The notes beneath the pieces are model-generated. The model made no database searches. It had not been told where the DNA came from and worked only from the letters and a program-made list of their open reading frames with translations. Shown piece by piece: positions 7,034 to 27,280 of a stretch of 63,520 nucleotides of DNA (positions are counted from its first letter, which is position 1; the number at the start of each line of letters is the position of its first letter). The position numbers and the translations under genes were made by a program. The DNA is from Acidobacteriota bacterium (GTDB taxonomy: Bacteria > Acidobacteriota > Thermoanaerobaculia > Multivoradales > JBCCEF01), in assembly GCA_039028635.1 (NCBI GenBank), contig JBCCHV010000038.1, forward strand, positions 1-63,520, given 5' to 3'.

Positions 7034-9073
7034 ATGAATGAAGCCTCCGCCGCGGCCCCGACCGCGTCCGTGGATCTTCTTGCGATCAACTCTCTCCGCT
7101 TCCTGGCCGTCGACATGGTCGAGGCCGCCGGCTGCGGTCACCCTGGGGCGCCGATGGGGCAGGCGGCGCTGGCCTATTGGCTGTGGACGCGCCACCTGCG
7201 GCACGATCCGGCGGAGCCGGAGTGGCTCAATCGCGACCGCTTCGTGCTCTCCTGTGGCCACGCCTCGGCGCTGCTCTACGGGTTGCTCCACCTGTCGGGC
7301 TACGACCTGCCGATGGCGGAGCTGAGGAACTTCCGCCAGCTCGGCTCGAAGACCGCCGGCCATCCGGAGTACGGCCACGCACCGGGTATCGAGACCACCA
7401 CCGGACCCTTGGGACAGGGCTTCGCCAACGCCGTCGGCATGGCGCTGGCCGAGTCGCACCTGGCGGCGCGCTTCAATCGGCCCGATTTTCCGGTGTTCGA
7501 TCACCGCACCTGGGTGCTGGCGAGCGATGGCGATCTGATGGAGGGCATCGCTTCGGAGGCGGCGTCGCTGGCCGGCCACTGGGGCCTCGGCAAGCTCAAC
7601 GTCTTCTATGACGCCAACGAGATCACCATCGATGGCTCGACGAACCTGGCCTTCTCGGAGGACGTCGCCCAGCGCTTCGAGAGCTTTGGCTGGCACATCG
7701 AGCGGGTCGACGACGGCAATGACCTGGTGGCGATCGATCGCGCCATCAAGAGCGCTCGCGGCGAGGCCGAGCGGCCGACGCTGATCGTGACCCGCACCCG
7801 CATCGGCTTCGGCAGCCCGAACCGCGAGAACACTTCGAAGGCCCATGGCGAGGCCCTGGGGGCGGAGGAGGCGCGACTCACCAAGGAAGCACTCGGTTGG
7901 CCGCAGGAGCCGACCTTCCATGTTCCGGAGGAGGCCCGGCAGCCCTTCCGCGCCGCCGCCGAGAGGGGCGCCGGTCTGTCGGCCGAGTGGCGCAAGATGT
8001 TCGAGCGCTATCGCGCCGCCCATGGGGAGCCCGCCGCCGAGATCGAGGCGCGTCTGGCGGGCGAGTTTCCCGATGAGCTGTGGAAGGCGCTGCCCGAGTT
8101 CCACCCCGAGGACGGGCCGCTGGCGACGCGCAAGGCTTCCGGGGCGGTGCTCAATGCGTTGGCTCCGCAGGTGCCGCAGTTGATGGGCGGCTCGGCGGAT
8201 CTCACCGGCTCGAACAACACCTGGATCAACGACGCTGCCGTCTACTCGCGCGACGATCGTGCCGGTCGCAACCTGCACTTCGGAGTCCGCGAGCACGCCA
8301 TGGGCGCGATCATGAACGGCATGGCGCTGTCGAAGCTGTTCATCCCCTACGGCGGCACCTTCTTGATTTTCTCGGACTACATGCGACCGCCCACTCGGCT
8401 GGCGGCGCTGATGGGGATTCCCGGGGTCTTCGTGTTCACCCACGACTCGATCTTCCTCGGCGAGGACGGGCCGACCCACCAGCCGGTGGGCCAGCTCGCC
8501 GCCTTGCGGGCGATTCCCAACGTCAACGTCATCCGGCCGGCCGACGCCAACGAGACCGCCGGCGCCTGGCGCCTCGCCCTCGAGAAGCGAGACGGTCCGA
8601 CGGTGCTGGCGCTGACCCGCCAGAAGCTGCCGATCTCCGACGAGCTGGTGGATCTGGGCCGCGACGGAGCGCTTCAGGGGGGCTACGTCTTGGCCGATCC
8701 GGAGCACGGCCAGGCACCGCGCGCGCTGCTGATCGCCACCGGTTCGGAGGTCAGCCTGGCGCTGGCTTCATACCGCGAGCTCGCCCGCGAGGGTATTCCG
8801 GTGCGGGTGGTCAGCCTGCCGTGCTGGGAGATCTTCGATCGCCAGGAGGCGAGCTATCGCGACAGCGTGTTGCCGCGGCAGATCACGGCACGGCTCGCCA
8901 TCGAAGCCGCCAGCAGCCTGGGTTGGCACAAGTATGTCGGCATCGACGGAGACGTGCTGTCGGTCGACCGCTTCGGTGCTTCGGCGCCCGCCGGCGACCT
9001 GGCGGAGGCCTACGGCTTCACCGTCGCCGAGGTGGTCCGTCGAGTGCGCTTCCTGCTCGACCTCGCCGGCTAG
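7034..9073 (+). CDS. tkt: transketolase
   Basis: 679 residues, the usual length for full bacterial transketolase. It moves two-carbon ketol units between sugar phosphates in the non-oxidative pentose phosphate pathway, using thiamine diphosphate, in the cytoplasm. Visible landmarks: G-H-P-G-A-P-M-G near residue 35, [10 protein letters not shown], the thiamine/metal motif S-D-G-D-L-M-E-G-I, and the pyrimidine-binding half with R-E-H-A-M and F-S-D-Y. It is followed after 13 bases by the MOSC gene, which may share its transcript. No clear promoter is seen in the short gap to the divergent tRNA-Ser. Confidence 0.95.
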
Positions 9074-14164: not shown

Positions 14165-15013
14165 CTATCGCTTCACCTCGTAGAACCACTCGATCGAGCA
14201 GACGTCGCCCTGGTAGCGGGCCTTGTCGACGGTCAGCTTGCCCTCCATCCAGTCGTCGTCGACGAGGTTGATCTCGTACTTGGCGCGGATCGCCGGGCCG
14301 CCCTCGCCGAGCAGGCGGGACATGTTCTGGTAGCCCTCGAAGTGCGGCAGATAGGTGCTTCCGACTTTGACGTCCGCTTCGCGGAGCAGGACGAGCTGCT
14401 CGCCGCTGCGCGAGCCGGTGACCTCCATGCGCAGGCCGTCGTTGCTCACCGCCACCGGCTCCGAGAAGCCCGGCAGGGCCACCGGAAAGGGCAGCTTCTG
14501 GCATTTCAGGACCCCCGCCTTGAAAGTCCAGGTCCAGTCGCCGGCGCATTCGGTGGGACGCTCTTCGAACTCGGTCACCTCGCGGTCGATGGCCCAGCGA
14601 ATCTCGCTGGTTTGCCCGGCGTAGCGGTGGGCGGCGTCGCCCGCCGGGGCTCCGGCGGTGTCGATCTTGGCGGTGACGTTGTAGACCTCGTGGAAGGCCT
14701 CTTTGGGCTTCTGGCAGTTGATCCACTTGCCGGCCTCGGCTACCGCGGGAATGGTGAAGCAGGTCTGGGTCGTGCCATCGGCGAAGCCGGGCTGGCCGCC
14801 GAGCTCCTTGCCGTTGCGGTTGAAGCTCCAGTAGATCGTCGGATCGCCGGAGAGCACGGCGCCGACGAAGCACAGGCGCACCGATTGGTGGGCCGAAGCG
14901 CGCCGGGGGGTGTCCTCGGCATCGACGAGCTCGAGAACCGGCTGGGCCGCGAGGGGAGCCACCAAGACGAGACTGAGGCCGACGACGGCCAGGGTGAAGA
15001 GAGGGTGTTTCAT
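14165..15013 (-). CDS. exported protein of unknown function
   Basis: 282 residues from the ATG at 15013, where GGAGG sits 7 bases upstream; an ATG at 15019 is too close to that site. The signal peptide is residues 1-23 (ends PLAAQ). The mature protein has at least six Cys, suggesting disulfides, and mixed beta-strand segments (SVRLCFVGAVLSGDP, WTWTFKAGVLKC). I recognise no catalytic motif. It is convergent with the serine hydrolase gene, leaving 7 bases between their ends. Confidence 0.7.
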   Translation of the reverse strand: MKHPLFTLAVVGLSLVLVAPLAAQPVLELVDAEDTPRRASAHQSVRLCFVGAVLSGDPTIYWSFNRNGKELGGQPGFADGTTQTCFTIPAVAEAGKWINCQKPKEAFHEVYNVTAKIDTAGAPAGDAAHRYAGQTSEIRWAIDREVTEFEERPTECAGDWTWTFKAGVLKCQKLPFPVALPGFSEPVAVSNDGLRMEVTGSRSGEQLVLLREADVKVGSTYLPHFEGYQNMSRLLGEGGPAIRAKYEINLVDDDWMEGKLTVDKARYQGDVCSIEWFYEVKR

Positions 15014-15350
15014 CAGCATTCCTCCAGAAATCGAGTCGCCATCCTTGGGACAGGAGGCTTCATCAGAGAGAACGGAGCGCCCGCCCGCAGCCGGACAAGG
15101 GCTCTCCCTCGGACAGGAGACCGTTGCGACGATCAGGCGTTGGAGTCGGGAAAGAAGTTTCACCGAGCAAGGGCGTCGCGAGTCCTACAGGAGTCGAGCT
15201 CGGCAGGGATCGAACCGCGGACTTCGGCGGCTACCGCTACAATCGCCGGGATGGACGTCGGCAGGCCGCCGTCGCTTTCGGACCTGCGACGTTTTCGGCC
15301 CGGTCCGCGCCTTGGTATGTGAGTCGCTGCGCTCAAGTGACCATGATTCT
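15014..15350. other. divergent intergenic region upstream of the LOV kinase
   Basis: A 337-base spacer between the exported protein and the LOV kinase. A TACAAT hexamer at 15238-15243 on the plus strand could be a -10 box for the kinase, but no matching -35 is visible. A stretch near 15200-15225 looks like a tRNA T-loop (GGATCGAACC), but its stem does not pair. I see no sigma54 site in this spacer, which suggests the kinase-regulator pair uses a housekeeping promoter. Confidence 0.35.
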
Positions 15351-16877
15351 ATGAATATCGAGGAGGGCGGCTTGGATTCACAGTCGTTCCTGGCCCTGGT
15401 GGCTCCGGTTCTCGATGATGTCGGCAGCGGCATCACGGTCGCCGATGCTCGCCAACCGGACCTACCGCTGATCTACGCCAATGGCGCCTTCGAGCGCATC
15501 ACCGGCTACGGTGCCACCGAGGTGGTGGGCCGGAACTGCCGTTTCCTGCAGGGGCCCGAAACCGATCCGCGCCAGATCGCGGCGCTGCGTTCGGCGCTGC
15601 GCGAGGGTCGGGCCCTGACCACCACCCTGGTCAATTACCGCAAGCAGGGTGGGCTGTTCTGGAACGAGCTGCGATTGACCCCGATTCGCGATCCGGCCGG
15701 TGAGGTGACCCACTTCATCGGAGTTCAGAAGGACGTCACCGCCGAGGTGCGCTCGCGCGAGCTCGAGGTGCGGGCCGACCGCCTCGAGGAGGAGCTCGCC
15801 CAGGGCCGCAGCCGCCACGATTCCCTGCGCAGCATGGTCGAGCCGATGGAGACCATCCTCGGCGAGGTGCGCTTCGGGGTGGTGCTGACCGATCAGCGAG
15901 GGGTCATCTCCTATCTCAACCGAACCGCCTGTGAGCTCCTCAGGGTGAGCTTCGAAGCCGTCCGTGGGCGCCGTTTCTCGGACCTCTACACCGGTGGCGA
16001 AGCGTTGCGCGCCGCCTTTCCGCTGCGTGCCGACAGCCGCGAGCAACGCCTCGATAGCTGCCTGGTGCTCGAAGACGGCAGTCTGCTCAATGCCGGGTTT
16101 TCGCTCCAGCGGGCGCAAGGGGGGCCGGGAGACAGGTCATTCCAGCTCCTGCTGTTCCGCGAGCTCGAGAGCCTCAAGAAGGTCGAAGGGGAGATGCGCG
16201 AGCTCAAACGGCTCTCGTCCCTCGGCCAGATGGCGGCCGGCTTCGCGCACCAGGTGCGCAATCCCCTCGCCGCCATTCGTTCTTTGGCCGAGGCGTTGAT
16301 CGAAGAGCTCGATCCCGACGACTCGCGGCGCGAGTACGGTGAACGCACGGTAGCCCTGGTGGAGCGCGTCGAGGGCCTGGTGCGGCGGTCCCTTCGCTTC
16401 ACCCATGACGAAGGCACCAGCCGCCGGCCGGTGTCGGTGGCGCGCCTCCTCGACGATCTGATGGGAGTCCTCGAGCCGCGTTGGGGCGACTCCGGTGGGC
16501 GGCCGGCCCTGGTGATCGGTCGAGAGCTGCCCGCGGTGCTGGTGGATCCGGCTCAAATCGTCGAGGTGCTGGTCATCTTGGTCGAGAACGCCCTCGACGT
16601 GGTGCGCGATCCGTCGCTGGTGCGAATCGAGTCGTCGCGTGCCAAGGAGGAGTCCGCCATGGTGGCCGTGGAGGTGGTCGACCGCGGTGCCGGCATGGCG
16701 CCCGAAATCCTCGAGAAGATCTTCGATCCCTTCTTCTCCACCAAGCCGCGGGGCGCCGGATTGGGGCTCGCCATCGCCTTGCGCCTGACCCACGAGAACC
16801 GGGGCGATCTGCTGGTGGAGTCCCATCCCGGTCAGGGCACTCGTTTCCGCCTTCTGTTACCGGAGGCGCCGGCTTGA
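15351..16877 (+). CDS. LOV-domain (blue-light) sensor histidine kinase
   Basis: 508 residues with no membrane segment, so a cytoplasmic sensor. Residues ~22-132 form a LOV-type PAS domain: G-R-N-C-R-F-L-Q-G at 60-68 with the photoadduct cysteine at 63, N-Y-R-K-Q-G-G-L-F-W-N-E-L at 95-107 (flavin-binding Asn95 and Asn105), and F-I-G-V-Q-K-D-V-T with the conserved Gln126. A coiled linker follows (~132-165), then a second PAS-like region (~165-275), an H-box with phosphoacceptor H300 (G-F-A-H-Q-V-R-N-P-L), and a C-terminal ATPase domain with a D-R-G-A-G-M-A-P G1 box and G-A-G-L-G-L-A. A TTG at 15372 with GAGGAGG upstream is a plausible alternative start that keeps the LOV domain. It lies 13 bases before the NtrC-type gene, its likely partner. 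Confidence 0.92.
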   Translation: MNIEEGGLDSQSFLALVAPVLDDVGSGITVADARQPDLPLIYANGAFERITGYGATEVVGRNCRFLQGPETDPRQIAALRSALREGRALTTTLVNYRKQGGLFWNELRLTPIRDPAGEVTHFIGVQKDVTAEVRSRELEVRADRLEEELAQGRSRHDSLRSMVEPMETILGEVRFGVVLTDQRGVISYLNRTACELLRVSFEAVRGRRFSDLYTGGEALRAAFPLRADSREQRLDSCLVLEDGSLLNAGFSLQRAQGGPGDRSFQLLLFRELESLKKVEGEMRELKRLSSLGQMAAGFAHQVRNPLAAIRSLAEALIEELDPDDSRREYGERTVALVERVEGLVRRSLRFTHDEGTSRRPVSVARLLDDLMGVLEPRWGDSGGRPALVIGRELPAVLVDPAQIVEVLVILVENALDVVRDPSLVRIESSRAKEESAMVAVEVVDRGAGMAPEILEKIFDPFFSTKPRGAGLGLAIALRLTHENRGDLLVESHPGQGTRFRLLLPEAPA

Positions 16878-16890
16878 GCGGCGGGCTGCC

Positions 16891-18243
16891 ATGAGTCTGG
16901 TTCTGCTGGTCGAGGACGACACGGATCTGGCCTTTGCCGTCGAGCGCTTGCTGGTCAAGGCCGGTCACCGGCTGCAGTGGGCCGCCGACGGCACCGAGGC
17001 CTTGGCGATGGCTTCCTCGAGTTTGGTCGATCTGGTGTTGCTCGACCTCGGGCTGCCGGATCTCGACGGCTTCGAGGTTCTCGAGCGCCTGCTGGCCCTC
17101 GATTCGACCCTGCAGGTGGTGGTCTTCACCGGTCGGGACGATGCCGAGACCGCCGTGCGGGCTTTGCGCCTGGGGGCCGCCGACTACCTCACCAAGCCGG
17201 TGTCGGCGGAGATGCTGCGCCACGCCGTGGCGCGGGCCGACGAGCGCGGCTCGCTGCGCCGGCGAGTGGAGACCCTCGACCGCGGTTCCGGGGAGGGGGA
17301 GCGCGCCTTGGGCGACGCGCCGGCCTTTGTCCAGGCGCTGGATGCCCTGCGGGCGGCGGCCCGGGCGCCGAAGACGCCGGTCTTGCTCACCGGCGAGTCG
17401 GGCACCGGCAAAGAGCTCGCCGCGCGTCTGCTGCATTCCTGGGGCGAGCGCGCCGATGGGCCGATGATCTCGGTCAACGCCGGCGCCTTTCCGGGCAGCC
17501 TCTTGGAGTCCGAGCTCTACGGTCACGAGGCCGGCGCCTTCACCGGCGCCCGAGGCGTGCGGCGCGGACTCTTCGAGCTCGCCACCGGCGGCAGCCTGTT
17601 CCTCGACGAGATCGGCGAGCTGTCGGCGGAGCTGCAGCCCAAGCTGCTGCGGGTGCTGGAGGGCCATCCCTTCCGTCGTTTGGGTGGCGAGCGCGAGGTG
17701 CGCTGCGATTTTCGTCTGATCTCGGCGACCCATCGCGATCTCGCCGTCGAGGTCGAGCGCGGCAGCTTTCGGCAGGATCTCTACCATCGCCTTCGCATCC
17801 TCGAGATTCGCCTACCGCCGCTGCGCGAGCGGCTCGAAGACATTCCGCTCTTGGCCGTTGCTTTCGCGACTCGCCTGGGTCGCGAGCTGGGTCGCGGCGA
17901 GGTGCGTATCGGCGACGAGGCGATGGCTTGTCTGAAGGCCTATCCCTGGCCGGGCAACGTACGCGAGCTGCGCAATGTCATCGAGCGCGCCATCGTGCTG
18001 TCGCCGGACGGTGAGTTGGTGGCCGGCAATCTGCCCTTGGAGGTGGCCAGCGCCTTGACGACCCCGGCACAGCAGCCCACGCTGCCGAACTTGCCTCCTG
18101 GAGTCGAGCGCCTCGACGAGGTGGTGCGGGCCCACGTGCGCGCCGTCTTCGAGCAGGCCGGTGGAAATCTCACCCATGCGGCGGAACGCCTCGGAATCAC
18201 CCGCGGCACCCTGCGCCGTCACCTCAAAAGCACCGATTCCTAG
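16891..18243 (+). CDS. NtrC-family sigma54-dependent response regulator
   Basis: 450 residues with complete three-domain architecture. The receiver domain (1-120) has D9/D10, phosphoacceptor D52 and K102. The AAA+ domain has Walker A G-E-S-G-T-G-K-E (168-175), the sigma54-contacting G-A-F-T-G-A loop (215-220) and Walker B L-F-L-D-E-I. The C-terminal Fis-type helix-turn-helix is N-L-T-H-A-A-E-R-L-G-I-T. It remodels sigma54 polymerase at promoters and binds DNA 80-150 bp upstream. It is encoded right after the LOV kinase, so phosphorylation by that kinase is the natural reading. A perfect sigma54 promoter with a palindromic candidate binding site follows immediately downstream. Confidence 0.95.
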   Translation: MSLVLLVEDDTDLAFAVERLLVKAGHRLQWAADGTEALAMASSSLVDLVLLDLGLPDLDGFEVLERLLALDSTLQVVVFTGRDDAETAVRALRLGAADYLTKPVSAEMLRHAVARADERGSLRRRVETLDRGSGEGERALGDAPAFVQALDALRAAARAPKTPVLLTGESGTGKELAARLLHSWGERADGPMISVNAGAFPGSLLESELYGHEAGAFTGARGVRRGLFELATGGSLFLDEIGELSAELQPKLLRVLEGHPFRRLGGEREVRCDFRLISATHRDLAVEVERGSFRQDLYHRLRILEIRLPPLRERLEDIPLLAVAFATRLGRELGRGEVRIGDEAMACLKAYPWPGNVRELRNVIERAIVLSPDGELVAGNLPLEVASALTTPAQQPTLPNLPPGVERLDEVVRAHVRAVFEQAGGNLTHAAERLGITRGTLRRHLKSTDS

Positions 18244-18268
18244 CCCGGGCGGGTCTCCCTGGCGTCCA

Positions 18269-18304
18269 ACTGGTTCAGAATCGACCGGTCGAAAATCGAC
18301 CAGT
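18269..18304 (+). promoter_or_regulatory. nested palindrome, candidate enhancer site for the NtrC-type regulator
   Basis: An inner perfect 12-bp palindrome, TCGACCGGTCGA (18281-18292), is flanked by ACTGGT (18269-18274) and its reverse complement ACCAGT (18299-18304). Both inverted pairs share the same centre at 18286/18287. That centre is about 102 bp upstream of the start expected from the sigma54 promoter at 18363, the usual distance for an enhancer-binding protein site. The palindrome is seen in the sequence; which protein binds it is inference. Confidence 0.65.
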
Positions 18305-18362
18305 GAACCTCTTCTGACCGGCGAGAGCTGCGAAAAGCCCCGGAATATGGGCGCTCCTGGGT

Positions 18363-18378
18363 TGGCACCTACCTTGCT
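18363..18378 (+). promoter_or_regulatory. sigma54 (RpoN) promoter
   Basis: TGGCAC-CTACC-TTGCT matches the -24/-12 consensus TGGCAC-N5-TTGCW at every fixed position. It lies 14 bases before the ATG of the receiver-PATAN gene, so transcription should begin near 18389, only about 3 bases before that ATG. The message would then be almost leaderless and would lack the AAAGGG sequence that could serve as a ribosome site for longer transcripts. The adjacent NtrC-family gene supplies the activator this promoter class requires. Confidence 0.88.
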
Positions 18379-18391
18379 CTAAAGGGTTGCC

Positions 18392-19555
18392 ATGAGCGCC
18401 CGTGTCGTCATGGTGGACGACGAAGCCGATCTGGTCTGGACGACCTCGCGACATTTTCGCCGCGAGCGGCCGGAGGTGGATTTCCTCGGTTTTTCGGATC
18501 CCGTGGAGGCCCTGCAGGCGATCAACGCCAATCCTCCCGACCTCTTGATCACCGATGTCCGCATGCCGTCGATCAACGGTCTGGAAATGGTGATGCTGGC
18601 GCGCGAGCGATCCCCGGAGATGAAAATCCTGGTGGTCTCCGCCTACGGTGCCGATCCGGTGCGCAAGCTCGCCGGCGGCCAGGGATCGGTCGAGTTTCTC
18701 GAAAAGCCTTTCGATTACCGCCAGCTTCTCGATCACGTCGACTCGGTGCTGGCCGCCGAGCAGCGCTTCTTCGGCGAAGTGTCGCTGCCGCTGTTCAGCG
18801 ACCTGATTCAGATCGTCGCCCTGTCGCGGGAGACCGGAGCGATCTCGGTCCTGCACGGGGAAACCAGTGGCACCGTGTGGTTCGAAGGCGGACAGCTGGT
18901 GCACTGTGTGCTCGGCGAGCTCTCCGGTGCGGAGGCCTTCCGGGAGATCCTCAGTTGGCAGCGCGGCGAGTTCCGCATGCGTCTGGGAGAGCAGGCACCG
19001 GTCCGCACCATCGAGGAGCCCATCGACCGGCTGGTGCTCGACAGCCTCACCAGTCTCGACGAGCAGTCCGCCGGCCTGAAAGCGAGCCCGCAGGCTGGGA
19101 CGGAAGAGGGTGCTGCCGCGGAGGCGGCCGCCTCGGAAGGGCCGCAGGACGAGCTCGCCGAGGGGCCGACCGACGATTCGCGAGTTTCGACACCCAATCT
19201 GCTGGCCGCCGGGCGTTGGCAACGCTGTGTGGTGGCGCGCCAGCTACCCCCGGCCTGTTGGCTGCTGGCGGTGTCGACCATCGATGGCAGCTCCTCCGTT
19301 CTCCATGGCGAGGGATCGGCGGCGGAGGGCTTCGGTGACTGGGCCCTCGATCTCGTCCACGCCGCCGCCCAGGTCGATCCGGAAGCCCGCAGCGGCTCCC
19401 TCGAAGGGGTCGAGCCGGATCTCGGGTGGGTTCTCGGCTGGGATCTCGACCAGAGTCTGGCGGTGGTCTTCGCTCAGCGAGCCGGGGGACCCACCGGCTT
19501 GCTGTCTTTCCGTGCCAATGGCGCCGCTGTGCGGCAGGCCTTGCTGGAGGTCTGA
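18392..19555 (+). CDS. receiver domain fused to PATAN (DUF4388) protein
   Basis: 387 residues. Residues 1-125 are a response-regulator receiver: acidic pair D9/D10, phosphoacceptor D55 (I-T-D-V-R-M-P), K at E-F-L-E-K-P-F. Residues ~130-230 match the PATAN/DUF4388 type: L-P-L-F-S-D-L-I-Q-I-V-A, then T-G-A-I-S-V-L-H-G and W-F-E-G-G-Q-L-V-H-C, G-A-E-A-F. After an acidic Ala/Glu linker, residues ~270-387 form a domain with profilin or roadblock-like strand pattern. PATAN proteins act in protein-protein signalling rather than DNA binding. It is the first gene after the sigma54 promoter and ends one base before the next gene. Confidence 0.85.
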   Translation: MSARVVMVDDEADLVWTTSRHFRRERPEVDFLGFSDPVEALQAINANPPDLLITDVRMPSINGLEMVMLARERSPEMKILVVSAYGADPVRKLAGGQGSVEFLEKPFDYRQLLDHVDSVLAAEQRFFGEVSLPLFSDLIQIVALSRETGAISVLHGETSGTVWFEGGQLVHCVLGELSGAEAFREILSWQRGEFRMRLGEQAPVRTIEEPIDRLVLDSLTSLDEQSAGLKASPQAGTEEGAAAEAAASEGPQDELAEGPTDDSRVSTPNLLAAGRWQRCVVARQLPPACWLLAVSTIDGSSSVLHGEGSAAEGFGDWALDLVHAAAQVDPEARSGSLEGVEPDLGWVLGWDLDQSLAVVFAQRAGGPTGLLSFRANGAAVRQALLEV

Positions 19556-19556
19556 G

Positions 19557-20018
19557 ATGACTTCTCTCAACGAGCTCTGTCGATTGCTCCAGGCCGAAGT
19601 CCCGGGTTCGCGGGCGGTCGGCATGCTCGAACCCGCCACGGGAACGCTGTTGGCCCACGCCGAACGACGCTCGAGCGCCGGCGAGGCCAGCACCGTCGAA
19701 ACCGCGGCCCTCGCCATCGACCTGTTGCTCAAGGTCGGTAAATCGCTGTTGCTGGCCCACGTGCGGCAGGAGCTCGATACCCGGCGCGATCGCCAGGAAT
19801 CGGTGCGCAAGCTGGTGACCTCGGTCGGAGGGCGTCGGCTCTTCCTGCGCAGCATGGGCTCCGGGCGGCGAGTGATTTTCTTGGTGACCGACGGCCGCGG
19901 GCGGGCCGAAGAAGTTTGGGAGCAGATCGAGCGTACGTCGACCCTGGCGGTGGCCCTCAGCGGCCCCCCCGGGCAGCGCTCCATCGCTTCGTCTGATCGT
20001 TTCGAGCCCTCGCCGTAG
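19557..20018 (+). CDS. small roadblock-like signalling protein (tentative)
   Basis: 153 residues with no signal peptide or membrane segment. Start ATG at 19557, one base after the previous stop (TGAG-ATGA), so it is coupled to the receiver-PATAN gene. The layout, L-C-R-L-L-Q helix, then P-G-S-R-A-V-G-M-L strand, then I-D-L-L-L-K-V-G-K helix and R-R-V-I-F-L-V-T-D strand, is like roadblock/LC7 or MglB proteins and resembles the C-terminal region of its neighbour. I infer that the two form a complex. No family was confirmed, so the name is tentative. Confidence 0.6.
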   Translation: MTSLNELCRLLQAEVPGSRAVGMLEPATGTLLAHAERRSSAGEASTVETAALAIDLLLKVGKSLLLAHVRQELDTRRDRQESVRKLVTSVGGRRLFLRSMGSGRRVIFLVTDGRGRAEEVWEQIERTSTLAVALSGPPGQRSIASSDRFEPSP

Positions 20019-20045
20019 GGGCAGGGTTTTCGAGGAGGGAACGCC

Positions 20046-20723
20046 ATGGATGCGTCCGTCGTTTTTCGCAAGACCGGGAAGGGTATGGCCGAGCTCGAAC
20101 AGGATGTTCGGCGCTTGGGAACTCAGGTACGCCAGCTCCTCCTGCTGATCGATGGCAACCGCACGGTGGGAGATCTGGGGTTGCTGATGCCGACCCTGGG
20201 GGACGTGCGTCCGACCCTGAGAGATCTGCTCTTCGAGGGTTTGATCACGACCAACTCGCCGCAGGCGATGGCCGAGCCGGAGCGACCTGCCGCGGCCGAT
20301 GGAGAGGAGCTCTTCCCCTATCTGGAGGACGTTCTGACCGGCGGTGAAGGTCGTAGCGCGGCCGCGTCGGCCCCGGCTCCGACTCCACCGCCGACGCCGA
20401 CCCCACCGCCAGTGGCCGCGACGCCGGCCCCGCCCCCTGCGTCAGCCCCGGCTGCCGCCGCTGCCAGTGCGCCGGAGGCCGCTTCGAAGGCTAGTGCGGA
20501 ACGCATCAAGAATTTGCAGAGCCGCATGATGGGAGAGGTTCGAGACTTCTTCGGTCGCGATGCCGATCTGATCTCTCCCAAAGTCAGAGCGTGCAAGTCG
20601 GTCGCCGAGCTGACGATGCTGGCGAGTCGCTTGCGCAGTGTGGCCGATTCCTACGGTGGAGCGGCGGAGGCCGATCGCTTCTTGGAGACATTGATGACGA
20701 TCCTTGCGGAAGGCAGTGATTAA
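20046..20723 (+). CDS. protein with winged-helix-like N-terminus and Pro/Ala linker
   Basis: 225 residues. Residues 1-80 (VFRKTGKGMAELE, L-L-L-I-D-G-N-R-T-V-G-D-L, L-L-F-E-G-L-I) have the pattern of small winged-helix proteins often found beside signalling genes. Residues ~110-155 are a Pro/Ala-rich flexible linker. Residues ~160-225 form a helical module (I-K-N-L-Q-S-R-M-M-G-E-V-R-D-F-F-G). The gene lies 27 bases after the roadblock-like gene, with GAGGAGGGAACGCC as ribosome site, and 57 bases before the rhodopsin. Its role is unknown; the position suggests it belongs to the light-response unit. Confidence 0.65.
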   Translation: MDASVVFRKTGKGMAELEQDVRRLGTQVRQLLLLIDGNRTVGDLGLLMPTLGDVRPTLRDLLFEGLITTNSPQAMAEPERPAAADGEELFPYLEDVLTGGEGRSAAASAPAPTPPPTPTPPPVAATPAPPPASAPAAAAASAPEAASKASAERIKNLQSRMMGEVRDFFGRDADLISPKVRACKSVAELTMLASRLRSVADSYGGAAEADRFLETLMTILAEGSD

Positions 20724-20780
20724 GCCGATTCAAGGGTCGACGGGTGCGATTTTTTCGAGGGAAGACGAGAAGGAGGAAAT

Positions 20781-21530
20781 GTGAATACTCTCGCCCTAAT
20801 TACGCAGTACTTTTATTGGATTTCTTTTCTGTGTTTGGCGTCCGGAACGATCTACTTCTTCATGGAGCGCAGCTCGCTCTTGGAGGAGTACCGCTCGACG
20901 GCGACCACGGCCGGCATCGTCTGCTTTATCGCGGCGCTGAACTACTGGGTGATGCAGGACATGGTGGGGCGCGACGGTTCGATCGAGTCGATTCTCAATT
21001 TCCCGACCGAGTTTCGCTACCTCGACTGGTTGATCACGACACCGTTGATCCTGACCAAGTTCCCGACTTTGCTGGGCTTCGATGAGGATCGCCGGCCGCT
21101 GCTGGTGACTTTGATCTTCGCCGACCTGGTGATGATCATCTGCGGCTATGCCGGTGAGCAGGCGATCAACCAGGCCGGTGGCAACTTCTCCGGCATGGGC
21201 GTTGGCATGTTCATCGCTTCGTCGGCGGCCTTCGCCTTCATCGTCTACTTGCTCTACTCGGTGGTGACCACCGCCGCGCGCGACAAGCTGAAGCCGATTC
21301 AGGACGGCCTCTCGCGCCTCAAGCTCTTCATCGCCATCGGTTGGTCGATCTACCCGATCGGTTACCTGATGTCGATGTTCGGCATCGGCCCCGAGGGCCA
21401 GATGCTGCGCGAGCTGATCTACAACGTCGCCGACGTCGTCACCAAGGTGGGCTTCGGTCTGGTGGCCGTCTTCGCCGTGCGCCAGGTGTCCCGCGACCAG
21501 TCCATCCGTAAGGCGATCGCTGACCTGTGA
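20781..21530 (+). CDS. proteorhodopsin-like light-driven pump with D-T-K motif
   Basis: 249 residues, seven membrane helices. Aligned by eye to green proteorhodopsin: counterion D82 (D97), T86 (T101), K93 where the proton donor E108 sits, D218 (D227) and retinal Schiff-base K222 (K231) in A-D-V-V-T-K. The D-T-K set is that of Exiguobacterium sibiricum rhodopsin, an outward proton pump with a Lys donor. N54 replaces the conserved His75, and I90 at the tuning position 105 suggests green rather than blue absorption. F144 sits where xanthorhodopsin has the Gly156 window, so a carotenoid antenna of that type is not expected. The GTG start follows AAGGAGG (20770-20776) at ideal spacing. Genes for making retinal follow directly. 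Confidence 0.95.
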   Translation: MNTLALITQYFYWISFLCLASGTIYFFMERSSLLEEYRSTATTAGIVCFIAALNYWVMQDMVGRDGSIESILNFPTEFRYLDWLITTPLILTKFPTLLGFDEDRRPLLVTLIFADLVMIICGYAGEQAINQAGGNFSGMGVGMFIASSAAFAFIVYLLYSVVTTAARDKLKPIQDGLSRLKLFIAIGWSIYPIGYLMSMFGIGPEGQMLRELIYNVADVVTKVGFGLVAVFAVRQVSRDQSIRKAIADL

Positions 21531-21563
21531 GGGTCTTTGATGGAGGAGCTTCGGCTCCCTGTT

Positions 21564-21610
21564 CGGAAGGCGCGGCGATTGAGAGCCGCCGCGCCTTCCG
21601 GTCTTCTTTT
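21564..21610 (+). terminator. intrinsic terminator or attenuator after the rhodopsin gene
   Basis: A 14-bp perfect stem, CGGAAGGCGCGGCG (21564-21577) pairing with 21587-21600, around a 9-base loop, followed by GTCTTCTTTT. This is a textbook Rho-independent terminator 34 bases after the rhodopsin stop and before the core of crtI. It probably makes the rhodopsin message more abundant than the carotenoid genes, with some read-through. Confidence 0.85.
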
Positions 21611-21646
21611 CGCTCCGCCTCGGCGGCGGGCGAAGAGCGGCCCTCG

Positions 21647-23116
21647 GTGGTCATCGGTGGTGGCTTCGGCGGCATGGCGGCGGCTCTTCGCCTGCGTGCC
21701 GCCGGCCATGCCGTCGTCCTGATCGAGCGCCTCGACCAGCTCGGCGGCCGGGCGCGGGTGTTCGAGCGCGACGGCTTCACGTTCGATGCCGGGCCGACGG
21801 TGATCACGGCCCCCTTTCTCTTCGAAGAGCTCTTCGAGCTGTTCGACAAGCGGATCGAGGATTACGTCGAGATGGTGCCTGTCGAGCCTTGGTACCGCAT
21901 GCTGTTTCCGGACGGTCGCCATTTCGACTATGGCGGGACCTTGGAGGACACCCTCGCCGAGATCGCTCGCTTCGAGCCTGCCGACCAAGACGGCTACCGG
22001 CGCTTGCTGGCGCACTCCCGGCGTCTCTTCGACAAAGGATTCACGGAGCTCGCCGACCAACCCTTCGGCTCGCCCTGGGACATGCTGCGGGTCGTGCCCG
22101 ACCTGATGCGCCTGCGGGCCGATCGCTCGGTCTCGGCGCTGGTCGCCAAGCACCTCCGGCACCCTCTGTTGCGTCAAGCCTTCAGCCTTCACCCGTTGCT
22201 GGTCGGAGGCAATCCCTTCACCACCACCAGCATCTACAGTCTGATCCACTACCTCGAGCGGCAGTGGGGTGTGCACTTCCCCATCGGCGGTACCGGAGCC
22301 CTGGTGGCGGCCCTCGGCCGGTTGCTCGCCGAGGTCGGCGTCGAGGTGCGGCTGGCCACCACCGTCGACGAGATCGAGGTGACGGACGGCCGGGCCCAGG
22401 GCGTGCGATTGGCTTCCGGCGAGCGCATCGCGGCGGCGCGAGTGATCTCGGCCGGCGATCCGGCCTTCGTTTACAAGCATCTCTTGGGCCCCGAAGTCCG
22501 CCGCCGCTGGAGCGATCGTCGACTCGAGCGCTTGCAGTACTCGATGGGTCTCTTCGTGCTCTACTTCGGCACCGATCGGGTCTACCCGGAGGTCGCGCAC
22601 CACACCATTCTGTTCGGACCGCGCTTCGAGGGTCTGCTGGCGGACATCTTCGAGCGCCGCACCCTGGCTTCCGATTTCAGCCTTTATCTGCACCGTCCGA
22701 CGGCGACCGATCCGGGATTGGCGCCGGCCGGTCAGGACGGTTTCTATGTGCTCTCGCCGGTACCCAATCTCAGTGCCGACATCGATTGGCAAACGGTCGG
22801 CCCGCAGTACCAGGAGAGCATCCTGCGGCATCTCGAAGCTCGACTGTTGCCGGATCTCCGGCGACACCTGGTGACCGCCTTCCACGTCACGCCGCGCTAC
22901 TTCCGCGACGAGCTGCTGAGCGTGCGCGGTGCCGGTTTCTCGGCCCAGCCGGTGCTGCGGCAATCGGCCTGGTTCCGCTTTCACAACCGCTGCGCCGACA
23001 TTCGGGATCTCTACTTCGTCGGCGCCGGCACCCATCCCGGCGCGGGAGTGCCGGGAGTGCTGTCGTCGGCCAAGGTGCTCAGCAACGTGTTGGCGCGGGA
23101 GGGAGTGGCGGCATGA
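21647..23116 (+). CDS. crtI: phytoene desaturase
   Basis: About 489 residues from the GTG at 21647. The frame is open back to a GTG at 21527 that overlaps the rhodopsin stop, but that extension runs through the terminator hairpin and has no homology-like content, so the later start, giving MVIGGGFGGMAAAL, fits CrtI proteins better. FAD-binding G-G-G-F-G-G-M and the E-R-L-D-Q-L-G-G-R-A motif lie at the N-terminus; F-D-A-G-P-T-V-I-T and the C-terminal G-A-G-T-H-P-G-A-G-V-P-G are diagnostic. It removes hydrogens from phytoene to make lycopene at the membrane. It ends with an ATGA overlap onto crtB. Confidence 0.92.
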   Translation: MVIGGGFGGMAAALRLRAAGHAVVLIERLDQLGGRARVFERDGFTFDAGPTVITAPFLFEELFELFDKRIEDYVEMVPVEPWYRMLFPDGRHFDYGGTLEDTLAEIARFEPADQDGYRRLLAHSRRLFDKGFTELADQPFGSPWDMLRVVPDLMRLRADRSVSALVAKHLRHPLLRQAFSLHPLLVGGNPFTTTSIYSLIHYLERQWGVHFPIGGTGALVAALGRLLAEVGVEVRLATTVDEIEVTDGRAQGVRLASGERIAAARVISAGDPAFVYKHLLGPEVRRRWSDRRLERLQYSMGLFVLYFGTDRVYPEVAHHTILFGPRFEGLLADIFERRTLASDFSLYLHRPTATDPGLAPAGQDGFYVLSPVPNLSADIDWQTVGPQYQESILRHLEARLLPDLRRHLVTAFHVTPRYFRDELLSVRGAGFSAQPVLRQSAWFRFHNRCADIRDLYFVGAGTHPGAGVPGVLSSAKVLSNVLAREGVAA

Positions 23117-24018
23117 CGACGACGATGCAGAGCCTGACGGCCCAGCAGCTCATGCGGCGACGGGGATCGACCTTCGCCTGGGCCGGCATGCTGCTGCCGG
23201 CGGAGCAGCAGCGCGATATCGCGCGCCTCTATGGCTTCTGTCGCACGGTCGACGATTGGGCCGATGAAGGAGGGGATCCGGCGGCGGCCGGGTTCCGCCT
23301 CGAGGCTTTGCGGCGGGCCCTGCGGCGGGGCGATGACGGTCATCCGGAAGGAGCGGTCCTGCTGGCGCTGGCCGAGCGCTACGGATTCGGCGTCGAGCCG
23401 GCGATTGCCCTCCTCGATGGCATGCTCGAAGACTTGGGGTCGGTGCGGGTGCGGACTCGCGGCGAGCTGGTGCGCTACGCCTATCGCGTGGCCGGCACCG
23501 TCGGCGAGATGATGTGCCCCATCCTCGGCTGCCGCAACGCCCGCGCGGTGCCCTTCGCCATCGATCTCGGCATTGCGATGCAGCTCACCAACATCGCTCG
23601 CGACGTGCTCGAGGATGCCGAGCGTGGTCGCATTTACCTGCCGCTGCCGCCGGGAGTCGAGGCCGGCGACCTGCTGGCCGGCCGCCCGGCGGCTCGCGAG
23701 GCGGCCTACGAGCAGGTGTTGGCGGCCCTGGCGCTGGCGGATCAGCACTATCGCAGCGCCGATCGGGGTGTGGCGCTGCTGCCGGCACGCAGTCGGCCGG
23801 CGGTGCTGGTGGCGAGCCGGGTCTACGAGGCGATTGGAAACGAGATTCGTCTGGGCGGCCGGCGGGCCTACTGGCGCCGGCGCGCGCGGGTCGGGAAGGG
23901 TCGCCGCCTGTGGCACTCGGCCCGAGCCCTGGCGGCACTGCCTCGCCTGCCCGCCGGCGGCCGTCACGAAGCGTGCCTCCATGCGCCCCTGGCGCGCCTC
24001 TCCGGCGGGCTGCCATGA
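23113..24018 (+). CDS. crtB: phytoene synthase
   Basis: 301 residues, starting at the ATG in the ATGA overlap with crtI. It joins two geranylgeranyl diphosphates into phytoene. Both Asp-rich Mg-binding motifs are present: D-D-W-A-D-E near residue 46 and D-V-L-E-D near residue 165. R-L-Y-G-F-C-R and the Q-L-T-N-I-A-R-D signature are also present. No GGPP synthase (crtE) gene lies in this window, so the precursor must come from elsewhere in the genome. It ends with an ATGA overlap onto crtY. Confidence 0.95.
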   Translation: MTTTMQSLTAQQLMRRRGSTFAWAGMLLPAEQQRDIARLYGFCRTVDDWADEGGDPAAAGFRLEALRRALRRGDDGHPEGAVLLALAERYGFGVEPAIALLDGMLEDLGSVRVRTRGELVRYAYRVAGTVGEMMCPILGCRNARAVPFAIDLGIAMQLTNIARDVLEDAERGRIYLPLPPGVEAGDLLAGRPAAREAAYEQVLAALALADQHYRSADRGVALLPARSRPAVLVASRVYEAIGNEIRLGGRRAYWRRRARVGKGRRLWHSARALAALPRLPAGGRHEACLHAPLARLSGGLP

Positions 24019-25187
24019 ACCCGGTGCAGGCCACCGGCGAGAGGTTCGACATCGTCATCCTCGGCGGTGGCTTGGCCGGTCTCAGCCTGGCCTGGCGCCT
24101 CGTCGATGGTCTCGGTCCGACGCGGCGGATCGCCATCGTCGAGCCGCGGGAGACCTATCGCGCCGACCGCACCTGGTGCTTCTGGAATCTCGAGTCGCAC
24201 CGCTTCGAGCACCTGGTGGATCGCCGCTGGCACCGCTGGCGGGTTGCCGGCTCCTGGGGAGAGCTCGAGCGCGGCTCCCAAAGGCAGCCCTACGAGCGGG
24301 TGCCGGCGGAAGCGTTCTACGGCGCGGCCCTCGACCTGCTCGCTGACAGCTCGAATGTCGAGCTCGTTCTGGGGGCGCGGGCCGAACGGGTGGCTGAGCA
24401 GGACGGCGAGGTTAGCGTCACCACTTCCGCTGGCGAGCTGACGGCGTCGCTGGTCTTCGACAGCCGTCCGCCGTCGTCGCGATCGGGCGCCCTCGAGCAA
24501 CGCTTCGCGGGCTGGCAGGTGCGTTCCGAGAACCCTTGTTTCGATCCCCGGGCGGTGACGTTGATGGACTTCCAGGAGGATCCTCGGGCGGAGGGTCTGC
24601 ACTTCTTCTACGTTCTGCCCGACTCCCTCTTCGAAGCCCTGGTCGAAGACACCTGGATCGCGCCCGAGGGCGCTCCGGAGCCGATCCACGAGGATCACCT
24701 GCGGCGCTATCTCGAGGTCCGCTATGGATTGACCGAGTTCGAGATCGTGCGCCGCGAGTCGGGAGCGATCCCGATGGATCCGGGCCTCGCGCGGCGGCCG
24801 GTGCGGGGGCGGGTGTTGCCGCTCGGGACCCGCGGCGGCGCGGTGCGTCCCGCCACCGGCTACGCCTTCCTTCAGATTCAGCGCCAGTGCGACCGCCTCG
24901 CCCAGCAGCTCCTGCGCCGTTCGGACGAGCTGCCGGAGATCTCGATGCCATCGCCCATCTCCGGCCTCGACCGCTGGATGGACACGCTCTTCCTGGCCTA
25001 CCTGCGGCGTCACCCTCGCCGTATGCCGCAGCTCTTCCGGGCGCTCTTCGAGCACACCCGGCCGGACGCCCTCAGTCGGTTCCTCGCCGGCGGCGGTTCC
25101 TTCGCCGATCGCTGGGCGGCGATGCGAGCCTTGCCGAAGCGACCGATGCTCGGCCAAGCCCTGCGCTGGGTGACCCACCATGGCTGA
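24015..25187 (+). CDS. crtY: lycopene beta-cyclase (CrtY type)
   Basis: 390 residues from the ATG at 24015. The N-terminus has a dinucleotide-binding fold I-L-G-G-G-L-A-G-L-S-L-A, then the CrtY signature R-T-W-C-F-W, F-D-S-R-P-P, M-D-F-Q, and R-P-A-T-G-Y-A-F in the C-terminal half. It closes both ends of lycopene into beta rings, giving beta-carotene, the substrate of the next gene. The 3' end overlaps blh by 8 bases, so the four-gene carotenoid set is translationally chained. Confidence 0.93.
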   Translation: MNPVQATGERFDIVILGGGLAGLSLAWRLVDGLGPTRRIAIVEPRETYRADRTWCFWNLESHRFEHLVDRRWHRWRVAGSWGELERGSQRQPYERVPAEAFYGAALDLLADSSNVELVLGARAERVAEQDGEVSVTTSAGELTASLVFDSRPPSSRSGALEQRFAGWQVRSENPCFDPRAVTLMDFQEDPRAEGLHFFYVLPDSLFEALVEDTWIAPEGAPEPIHEDHLRRYLEVRYGLTEFEIVRRESGAIPMDPGLARRPVRGRVLPLGTRGGAVRPATGYAFLQIQRQCDRLAQQLLRRSDELPEISMPSPISGLDRWMDTLFLAYLRRHPRRMPQLFRALFEHTRPDALSRFLAGGGSFADRWAAMRALPKRPMLGQALRWVTHHG

Positions 25188-26115
25188 TGCCACGGTCCTC
25201 GGGACTCACCGGCAGTTCTCGGCCTTGTTGCCCTGGGGGATGGCCTTTGCGGTGCCGACGGTGCCGGAGAACGTGCAGGTCGCCGTGCTGGCGATCGGGG
25301 TGGTTTGCCTCGGCTTGCCCCACGGTGCGCTCGATCATCTGGTCGCTCGGCCCGCCCTCGTGCCGCGCTGGGGGCGGGCTTGGCTACCGCTCTTTCTGCT
25401 CGCCTACCTCGGCCTCGCGGCGGTGGCCCTCGCGGCATGGATCTGGTTGCCGGCAGTGACCCTGCTGGCCTTTCTGGCGCTATCCGTCGTCCACTTCGGA
25501 GGCGATGCGTCCGACGGCGAGAAGCCTTCCCCGGCGGCCGTGATGGCCTGGGGCGGGGCGCCGGTGATTTTGCCCTGCTGGTTCCATCCCGCGGAGGTGG
25601 CGGCGGTTTTCGATTTGCTCGTGGTTGGAGGTGATGAGGGAGGTTTGGAGTCGATCGTGCGGGGAGCGGCGCTCCCCGCACTGCTTCTCTGGTCCGCGGC
25701 CGTTCTTTGGCACCACCGGGGCCTGCTGTACCGGATCGATCGCGCCCAGGGCCTCTCCTTGGCGACTCTCGTCGGGCTGGTGGTGCTGTTTGCCCGGCTT
25801 CCGCCCCTGATGGCCTTCGCGATCTACTTCTGTGGCATCCACTCGTTGCGACACCTTCTCGAGCTGCGTTCCGAGGTGCCGGCGGCGCAGGCGGCTCGTC
25901 CCGGCCGCTGGTTGGTCTTCCAAGCGGCGCCCCTGACCCTCGCCACGGTGGGTCTGGCCTTGCTGGCCGGGCCGGCCCTGACGGCTGACCTGCAGCTCTC
26001 GGAAGCGGTTCTGCGGCTGGTCTTCTGGGGCCTGGCGGCGCTCACCGTGCCCCACATGCTCCTCCTCCTCTGGTGGCATGCGGACCGCGCTTCCGGGCGC
26101 GAGGCGGCGGGATGA
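25180..26115 (+). CDS. blh: beta-carotene 15,15'-dioxygenase (Brp/Blh family)
   Basis: 311 residues, multi-pass membrane protein. It cleaves beta-carotene into two molecules of retinal, the chromophore of the rhodopsin upstream. Family hallmarks: G-L-P-H-G-A-L-D-H-L (residues ~47-56), V-V-H-F-G-G-D (~107), G-I-H-S-L-R-H (~222) and a late P-H-M-L; the scattered His are the iron ligands. It overlaps crtY by 8 bases and ends the operon. No strong terminator is seen in the 59 bases before the next gene. Confidence 0.93.
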   Translation: MADATVLGTHRQFSALLPWGMAFAVPTVPENVQVAVLAIGVVCLGLPHGALDHLVARPALVPRWGRAWLPLFLLAYLGLAAVALAAWIWLPAVTLLAFLALSVVHFGGDASDGEKPSPAAVMAWGGAPVILPCWFHPAEVAAVFDLLVVGGDEGGLESIVRGAALPALLLWSAAVLWHHRGLLYRIDRAQGLSLATLVGLVVLFARLPPLMAFAIYFCGIHSLRHLLELRSEVPAAQAARPGRWLVFQAAPLTLATVGLALLAGPALTADLQLSEAVLRLVFWGLAALTVPHMLLLLWWHADRASGREAAG

Positions 26116-26174
26116 GCCGCGCCTCGAATCGCCATCGTCTTGCTGTCTGATTTCGAAGGATTTAGGAGAACGTC

Positions 26175-26714
26175 ATGAATCGAGCTTTGTTGTGGGTTTG
26201 CGTGCTTTCTTTGCTGGCCGTGCCGGTGGCGGCTCAAGACTTCACCTGTCAGTCGGGCGAAGCCCCGGCCCCGGGCGGCGACGGCGTGTGGAGAATCTTC
26301 AAGCCGGTGGTGATGGCGAAAGAGTTCCAGCAGTCGATGCGTCCGCGGCGCTATCACCAGCCGTGGAAGAAACTGCAATACGTGGTGCCCTCGGAGACAT
26401 CCTTGATCGAAGGTTTCGGCTCGCCCACCGGTGGCTCCGCCGATCAGTCGGAAGTCTTCCGCAGCGCCGATGTGCTGCCCCTCGGCATGGCCGAGCAAGA
26501 GGCCTGCGAGCGCTTCCGCAAGGCCAGCTTCTCGGTCTACTCGAAAGAGCGAGTCGACCGTGAGTTCGCGCGCCAGGACAGCGTCGAGACCCTGCTTTCC
26601 GAGGTCGAGAAGAAGATCGCCCGCCTGACCTCCGAGCTCACCAAGGCACAGCGCGCCAACCGGGCGCTCGCCAAGCGAGTGGGTGAGCTCGAGGCTCAGC
26701 AGGCGGCCGAGTAG
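26175..26714 (+). CDS. exported coiled-coil protein of unknown function
   Basis: 179 residues with signal peptide 1-21 (ends PVAAQ). The mature N-terminal half holds two Cys far apart (C near 25 and C near 115) and short strands. The last ~45 residues (VEKKIARLTSELTKAQRANRALAKRVGELEAQ) form a clear heptad coiled coil, so it probably oligomerises. It lies 59 bases after blh on the same strand and might be read through from it, but nothing ties it to light biology. The function is unknown. Confidence 0.65.
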   Translation: MNRALLWVCVLSLLAVPVAAQDFTCQSGEAPAPGGDGVWRIFKPVVMAKEFQQSMRPRRYHQPWKKLQYVVPSETSLIEGFGSPTGGSADQSEVFRSADVLPLGMAEQEACERFRKASFSVYSKERVDREFARQDSVETLLSEVEKKIARLTSELTKAQRANRALAKRVGELEAQQAAE

Positions 26715-26741
26715 GCGCTGCCGGGTTGAGGCCGGTCGACC

Positions 26742-27224
26742 TCAGCCCATCGCGCCGGGGTGTCCGGCGAGGCGGCGCAGGATGCCGAGCTGCCCGGCGT
26801 GGTAGGCCTGGTGAAAGGCCAACAGGACGGCGAAGGAGCCGACCGTCTCCGAAACGTCCCGGCGCGGCGAGATCGGTGACGGCGCCGCCAGCTCCTCGGG
26901 ACTAATCTCCTGCAGACGGGCGATGATCCGCTGGTGGCTGCGCTCTAGGTCGGCCAGCAGCTCGGCGAGGGGCCGGGCGTCCTCCGCAGTCAACGGCCCC
27001 GCGCCGCGGTGGTAGGGCGCCATCGCCTCGCGGGAGGTGACGCGCTCGCCACCGAGCACCTGCAGCAGGCTGTCGCCGGTGTGGAGCAGATGGCCGAGCA
27101 CCCAATTGGCGCAGGAGCCGCCGCCGGCAGGAAGCTGCAGGCTCTCCTCGTGGCGCAGGTCGGCGAGGTTCTGCCGCACCGCCCACATCGTCGTTTCGAG
27201 CTGCTGGATGACCGTGTCTCGCAT
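26742..27224 (-). CDS. DinB family protein
   Basis: 160 residues from the ATG at 27224 with a GGGGAGAGC ribosome site. It is a four-helix DinB-like protein with His in G-H-L-L-H near residue 45 and F-H-Q-A-Y-H-A-G-Q-L near residue 138, the expected metal ligands. It is distinct from the DinB at 12166, sharing the fold and the terminal P-G-A-M-G. It lies 57 bases downstream of the nitrilase-like gene on the same strand, so the two may share a transcript. Confidence 0.85.
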   Translation of the reverse strand: MRDTVIQQLETTMWAVRQNLADLRHEESLQLPAGGGSCANWVLGHLLHTGDSLLQVLGGERVTSREAMAPYHRGAGPLTAEDARPLAELLADLERSHQRIIARLQEISPEELAAPSPISPRRDVSETVGSFAVLLAFHQAYHAGQLGILRRLAGHPGAMG

Positions 27225-27280
27225 GGTGCTCTCCCCTTTTCGTCGACGACGAAGTCGTCGCGGCGAGCGCAGTTCGAGAC

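Follow-up and report, generated by a model that had tools for sequence, protein, structure and literature searches.

To our knowledge, how bacteria decide when to synthesize a light-driven rhodopsin pump is poorly understood. The window analyzed here, that is, the whole stretch of 63,520 nucleotides, holds a photosensor, an activator, a proposed enhancer, a promoter, and pump genes within one 11-kb stretch, with a spacing common to two species. What does the short region at 18269 to 18391 control, and which signal would reach it? An earlier sequence-only reading had explained it by a sigma54 promoter, an upstream activator site, and an activator in a genome with rpoN. These elements were supported, with the form of the activator site revised, but the interpretation was only partly right and too narrow; it left the rhodopsin and retinal genes downstream unmentioned. 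We consider it probable that the region is the control region (enhancer plus sigma54 promoter) of a LOV-controlled rhodopsin/retinal operon (Table 1). Because all the parts lie within 11 kb and share their spacing, light control of this operon can be tested in a laboratory host.

Table 1. Coordinates of the features discussed in the text
Feature	Coordinates	Strand	Basis or remark
DNA stretch (window), 63,520 nt	contig JBCCHV010000038.1, 1-63,520	forward	Acidobacteriota bacterium, GCA_039028635.1
LOV/PAS sensor histidine kinase	15351..16877	+	Pfam PAS, HisKA, HATPase_c; LOV-structure match, best E 7.4e-31
NtrC-type response regulator, proposed activator	16891..18243	+	Sigma54_activat 1.6e-58, Response_reg 1.5e-26, HTH_8 2.1e-8
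Dyad 1, ACTGGT-N9-ACCGGT, proposed activator site	18269..18289, centre 18279	.	Position kept in G001; shuffles
Dyad 2, ACCGGT-N9-ACCAGT	18284..18304, centre 18294	.	Shares ACCGGT with dyad 1, offset of 15 bp; poorly kept in G001 in this register
Sigma54 -24/-12 promoter, TTGGCACCTACCTTGCT	18362..18378	+	Exact consensus, genome-wide excess over control, G001 conservation, shuffles
AAAGGG, Shine-Dalgarno-like	18381..18386	+	Just 5' of predicted start; G001 counterpart AAAGAGG
Predicted transcription start	18389..18389	+	Inferred by spacing rule
REC-DUF4388 response regulator, first gene 3' of promoter	18392..19555	+	Response_reg 5e-19, DUF4388 1.6e-15
Small protein, no Pfam match	19557..20018	+	Look-alike by eye, same place in G001 and G033
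225-aa protein, no Pfam match	20046..20723	+	Look-alike by eye, same place in G001 and G033
Microbial rhodopsin (RYLDWLITTPLILTK, helix C)	20781..21530	+	Bac_rhodopsin 4.7e-45; best match among solved structures 4hyj, E 9.9e-79
CrtI-like phytoene desaturase family protein	21527..23116	+	Amino_oxidase 5.6e-39; CrtI name inferred from context
CrtB-like phytoene synthase	23113..24018	+	SQS_PSY 1.2e-59
Lycopene cyclase (CrtY type)	24015..25187	+	Lycopene_cycl 3e-58
Beta-carotene 15,15'-dioxygenase (Blh/Brp type), retinal-making	25180..26115	+	BCD 5.2e-54

Genes around the control region and the reach of the promoter

The source genome (G000; 6.28 Mb in 117 contigs) was compared mainly with G001, the single genome of the same genus available for comparison, and with G033 and G029, which are placed in the same order. 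In both G000 and G001, the genes of the LOV kinase and the NtrC-type regulator lie directly upstream of the control region. The kinase joins a GxNCRFLQ motif, including the flavin-adduct Cys, to a histidine kinase, with the LOV core GRNCRFLQ(G) from about 15528 and the H-box GFAHQVRNP from 16239. The regulator has the REC, AAA+ sigma54-interaction, and Fis-type HTH domains of the NtrC family together with a GAFTGA loop (EAGAFTGAR at 17527). The sequence-only reading had named the NtrC protein; the neighboring gene does encode an activator bearing a sigma54-interaction domain and a Fis HTH, but this protein is better described as an NtrC-type regulator beside a LOV kinase. Its G001 ortholog is 69% identical, and two residues differ in the HTH recognition stretch AAERLGITRGTLRRHL. 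The G001 protein reads GAFTSA in place of GAFTGA (L032:7267), which one would not expect of a sigma54 activator with a conserved promoter.

Downstream, the gaps from the REC-DUF4388 gene to the rhodopsin gene measure 1, 27, and 57 bases, and thereafter the genes follow with 4-base overlaps. The rhodopsin carries Asn where 4hyj, which we take to be the Exiguobacterium sibiricum rhodopsin, has His in AAIHYY. The RYLDWLITTPLILTK stretch is identical in the G001 and G033 rhodopsins, and its Lys presumably occupies the proton-donor position.

A non-consensus promoter could lie in the 57-base gap before the rhodopsin gene, and this gene is preceded by a Shine-Dalgarno sequence of its own. The enhancer and the sigma54 promoter might then serve only REC-DUF4388 and its two small partners, with a separate promoter for the rhodopsin and carotenoid genes at 20724-20780 or elsewhere; we regard this as unlikely, yet it fares best among the alternatives. 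The signaling set can stand alone, as in G029, where an NtrC-type gene, a TTGGC-N7-TTGCTCTA site, and REC-DUF4388 are followed by small proteins and no rhodopsin match was found. Against a separate promoter, gene order is kept in G000, G001, and G033, and the 57-base gap shows little likeness among them. In addition, a consensus scan of 14700-27500 (12.8 kb), a weak method in such genomes, called no terminator-like site between 18392 and the rhodopsin start and no sigma70-like promoter at all, the latter being weakly informative because 0.6 were expected by chance. Seven terminator-like sites were called in this stretch against 8.2 expected, one inside the rhodopsin gene at 21089 and others further on.

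Rhodopsin matches were found in 3 of the 72 genomes of the order (plus one distant match) and, at E <= 1e-30, in 2 of 396 genomes sampled across the phylum, a sample without G033. REC-DUF4388 gave matches in 59/59 genomes at E <= 0.001; among the matches listed, only the protein itself and those of G001 (contig C21, 61% identity to the source-genome protein), G033, and G029 exceed both 300 residues and 35% identity. A second relative in G001 (C26) is 42% identical over 226 residues. A wider contig search for this protein relied on two peptide patterns, both taken from the REC domain, and among the 80 of 118 candidates that were kept, only L090, which appears to be the G033 contig C104, and L091 matched at E <1e-60, the next match standing at 2e-13. 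At L091, we found no rhodopsin motif, GAFTGA motif, or sigma54-like site upstream of the REC-DUF4388 gene.

G033 holds the LOV kinase, REC-DUF4388, and the rhodopsin cluster, and its locus lacks the NtrC gene, the dyad, and the promoter. There, the kinase gene overlaps the REC-DUF4388 gene directly (8163/8160), the scan gave no sigma54-like site before the kinase gene, and the single sigma54-like match within the 18-kb region sits past the rhodopsin gene, at 15253. The G033 rhodopsin contig carries no dyad, and the best NtrC-type match elsewhere in that genome is 45% identical. As the same cluster occurs in G033 without the NtrC gene or the promoter, the module can do without the sigma54 step. 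The full arrangement is carried by two species only.

The sigma54 promoter and the dyads upstream

Within the promoter, TGGCAC occupies 18363-18368, the spacer CTACC 18369-18373, and TTGCT 18374-18378, which places the GG and GC dinucleotides 10 bases apart within TGGCAC-N5-TTGCW. The complete TGGCAC-N5-TTGCT claimed earlier is therefore there to the letter. It is the sole match in the window at one mismatch or fewer, for which the chance expectation is 1.39 and 73 of 100 shuffles gave at least one. Since such near matches are common by chance, it is the exactness of the site that carries weight: when the 148-bp intergenic stretch was dinucleotide-shuffled 20,000 times, the exact TGGCAC-N5-TTGCW appeared in only 2 of the shuffled sequences. 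Genome-wide, TTGGC-N7-TTGCT occurs 20 times in G000 versus 5 for the reversed control, and 16 times in G001 versus 9. Among the 20 G000 sites, only the one at 18362-18378 reads TTGGCAC; six lie outside any gene called by a simple gene caller, and the remaining 14 may be chance. The source genome encodes rpoN (PF04552, E 5.2e-66), the lack of which the sequence-only reading had named as fatal to its own claim.

Upstream of the promoter, ACTGGT (18269-18274) and ACCAGT (18299-18304) are concentric with a perfect 12-mer, TCGACCGGTCGA (18281-18292), about a centre at 18286.5. The two inverted pairs with one centre about 102 bp before the start, as first described, have the letters and the distance (102.5 bp) right, and so does the 25-base gap from the activator gene, which ends with its stop codon at 18243. 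This concentric pair arose in none of 20,000 shuffles of the intergenic stretch, the pattern having been picked after inspection of the sequence. By comparing the two species, however, we found that G001 keeps a 21-bp dyad and the central ACCGGT without the outer ACCAGT arm or the full 12-mer, and the concentric palindrome is, on this sequence comparison, probably not the functional unit. The source genome has two overlapping 21-bp dyads, both of which fit ACYGGT-N9-ACCRGT with the common element ACCGGT. We prefer the dyad over the concentric palindrome because G001 keeps its centre 85 bp from the -24 GG. When each stretch was shuffled 20,000 times, the dyad turned up in 0 shuffles for G000 and in 1 for G001, again for a pattern picked after inspection.

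Upstream of the REC-DUF4388 ortholog, G001 carries ACCGGTCAAAAATTGACCGGT and TTGGCCTGCGCCTTGCT. The 85 bp from dyad centre to -24 GG and the 13 bases from TTGCT to ATG are the same in both genomes, ungapped, and in the G001 promoter the GG/GC spacing and TTGCT are kept while TGGCAC has become TGGCCT. Compared without gaps, dyad 1 is identical at 16/21 positions and the promoter at 12/17; the corresponding figures are 24/57 for the bases from dyad 2 to the promoter, 4/13 for those following the promoter, and 6/25 for those preceding the dyad. In register, dyad 2 matches G001 at 13/21 positions; by eye, its sequence is nearer to the G001 dyad than that of dyad 1 is. The G001 dyad falls within the last codons of the activator gene (stop codon beginning at 24013), and because the dyad of the source genome is noncoding, protein coding does not explain it. 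Of the proposed enhancer site, then, a putative upstream activator site with sequence and exact spacing kept in G001 stands, and the single concentric palindrome probably does not.

The scan for further palindrome copies that the earlier reading had called for revealed no regulon in G000, G001, or G033. With the core fixed and up to three mismatches allowed (the strict search), G001 has the dyad only at the locus; G000 has it elsewhere only at C32:9-29 and 160-180, two copies of one contig-end repeat; and G033 has five matches, all with three mismatches and none on the rhodopsin contig, versus six in the control. The looser pattern, ACYGGT-N9-ACCRGT, occurs at 6 places in G000 (2 at the locus) versus 3 in the reversed control, at 2 in G001 (1 at the locus) versus 3, and at 7 in G033 versus 18. 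Outside the locus of these three genomes there is thus no excess over the reversed control, and the places away from it have unlike cores. A dyad regulon therefore found no support in these genomes. The contig-end repeat (L176, on G000:C32) has its two copies 151 bp apart, each with three mismatches to the strict dyad. A second, G+C-rich match to the looser pattern lies at G001:C21:20645-20665, a few hundred bases upstream of the G001 LOV kinase gene.

Any of the 30 matches to the NtrC-type regulator in its own genome at E <= 1e-40 is a possible user of the dyad, which might be the site of another regulator or an autoregulation operator while the adjacent protein acts elsewhere. We consider this quite improbable, given that the dyad lies at the activator gene end and ahead of the promoter in G000 and G001 and is absent where the gene is absent from the locus, and that its spacing fits a bacterial enhancer. 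A role in RNA, with the palindrome as a 3'-terminal hairpin of the NtrC mRNA (an mRNA end or attenuator) and not a DNA site, is the least probable alternative: both sequences can fold, strongly in G001 (z -3.49, 1 of 200 shuffles folding as well), and by eye one G-C pair becomes A-U when dyad 2 is compared with the G001 dyad, but the G000 fold is weak (z -1.40, 16/200), no T run follows the palindrome and no terminator-like site was called, a dimer-binding DNA site yields the same symmetric changes, and an RNA function leaves the exact 85-bp spacing unexplained.

The predicted transcription start

With the start assumed to lie 12 bases after the -12 C (18377), the leader would comprise 3 bases before the ATG at 18392, just as first estimated, and the same 3 bases recur in G001. 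The near-leaderless message is so far unproven, a geometry predicted by this spacing rule. The ATG itself is supported because M1 of REC-DUF4388 lines up across the G000, G001, and G033 proteins, and by eye the G029 and L091 proteins start alike. Speaking against this ATG, the G001 frame extends upstream as far as a TTG within the promoter, at which the gene caller set the start; in the source genome, a TAA at 18380 closes the upstream frame. As for the Shine-Dalgarno-like sequences of the two genomes, either the start lies slightly higher or they serve readthrough messages.

How common such short leaders are was assessed with the TTGGC-N7-TTGCTCTA pattern, which gave 37 matches in 71 genomes versus 21 for the reversed control (summed by hand), 16 of the 37 continuing as TTGGCAC. 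Thirty of these loci were examined, 20 of which have a machine-called downstream start; predicted leaders are 5 bases or shorter in three of the 20 (REC-DUF4388 and two pilin-like genes), and at least 14 bases in the other 17. The supposed rarity of near-leaderless sigma54 genes thus holds in that they are uncommon, but the case is not unique, with two other sigma54-like sites in the order. The pilin-like genes of L195, L206, and L177 have TTGGCAC-N5-TTGCTCTA sites upstream, and the predicted leader is 5 bases in L195 and L206. In G029 (L034, about 7805-7967), a short ORF, seen by eye, opens 12 bases downstream of TTGCT and closes immediately ahead of the REC-DUF4388 ATG; judging by this frame, the 133-base leader may encode a peptide. 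In S. meliloti, a mapping study gives 171 leaderless starts among 17,001 mapped and RpoN-type motifs before 112 starts (PMC3616915). The shared 3-base leader offers a test case for whether a sigma54 promoter can feed leaderless translation.

In a readthrough message, 18345-18356 could pair with 18394-18405 and cover the REC-DUF4388 start region, and a sigma54 transcript from the predicted start would lack the 5' arm of this hairpin. The 71-nt start regions fold with z -2.49 in G000 and -2.11 in G001, through different stems, and in the G001 fold the start codon is mostly unpaired (0.67). The fold of the whole 148-nt leader is ordinary (z -0.85), and 2 of the 33 scored start regions of the window have a lower z than that of REC-DUF4388. 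One might picture a gated route in which the Cys-bearing LOV kinase acts through a private sigma54 enhancer on the rhodopsin/retinal operon, the readthrough hairpin hides the start, and mainly the leaderless sigma54 message is translated; in this elaborate form we find it doubtful indeed.

A proposed light-to-rhodopsin route and its relation to known systems

For the LOV-controlled operon that we favor, the protein families suggest that blue light sensed by the LOV kinase would alter the phosphorylation of the NtrC-type regulator. The shared site and its position suggest that the regulator would bind the 21-bp dyads, which lie 95-110 bp before the start, whereupon its AAA+ ring would assemble and remodel a sigma54 RNA polymerase poised at 18362-18378. 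Such remodeling by an AAA+ ring is the known mechanism of the NtrC family. From gene spacing and shared order, transcription would begin at about 18389, cross REC-DUF4388, and extend to the genes for rhodopsin, carotenoids, and retinal. This transcript would yield REC-DUF4388 and a rhodopsin whose retinal is provided by the downstream genes. REC-DUF4388 is perhaps a second target of the same kinase, which might act on it instead of, or besides, the NtrC-type regulator. A light-sensing sigma54 system of this kind would be tight (no activator, no transcription) and a useful optogenetic switch.

With NtrC-family two-component systems, the locus shares the REC-AAA+-HTH activator, GAFTGA, an upstream dyad, TGGCAC-N5-TTGCT, and rpoN; it differs in that the activator adjoins a LOV kinase and the proposed output is a rhodopsin operon. 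The dyads, ACYGGT-N9-ACCRGT, are also unlike the enteric NtrC site, TGCACC-N5-GGTGCA. LOV histidine kinases such as Brucella LOV-HK likewise couple LOV to HisKA/HATPase, and our kinase strongly matches solved LOV domains; none of the matches listed, by title or abstract start, ties a LOV kinase to a sigma54 activator. Among the matches listed from the open-licence literature, again by title or abstract start, we found no bacterial rhodopsin operon under LOV or sigma54 control, and a review of light-regulated bacterial expression contains neither "sigma54" nor "NtrC" (PMC9614035). Each part is known, and the combination of LOV kinase, NtrC-type regulator, sigma54, and rhodopsin was not found among the matches listed.

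The REC-DUF4388 architecture is shared with the response regulators PixE, LsiR, and PixG of cyanobacterial phototaxis, DUF4388 being what we take to be the PATAN domain. The host differs here, and the Pfam scan of ten window proteins yielded no pilus gene. These PATAN regulators are light-linked in cyanobacteria (PMC7690835).

The nearest functional parallel is BAT (bacterio-opsin activator) of haloarchaea, a regulator of rhodopsin genes. A report on BAT describes LOV-like, receiver, GAF, and HTH modules and, in the LOV domain studied, a Pro in place of the adduct Cys (PMC4682037). Here, as in BAT, a LOV-type domain would take part in the regulation of rhodopsin genes. Unlike this single archaeal protein, the present system splits these modules over a kinase and an NtrC-type regulator, with no GAF match; it has the adduct Cys, and a two-component system together with sigma54 would exert the control.
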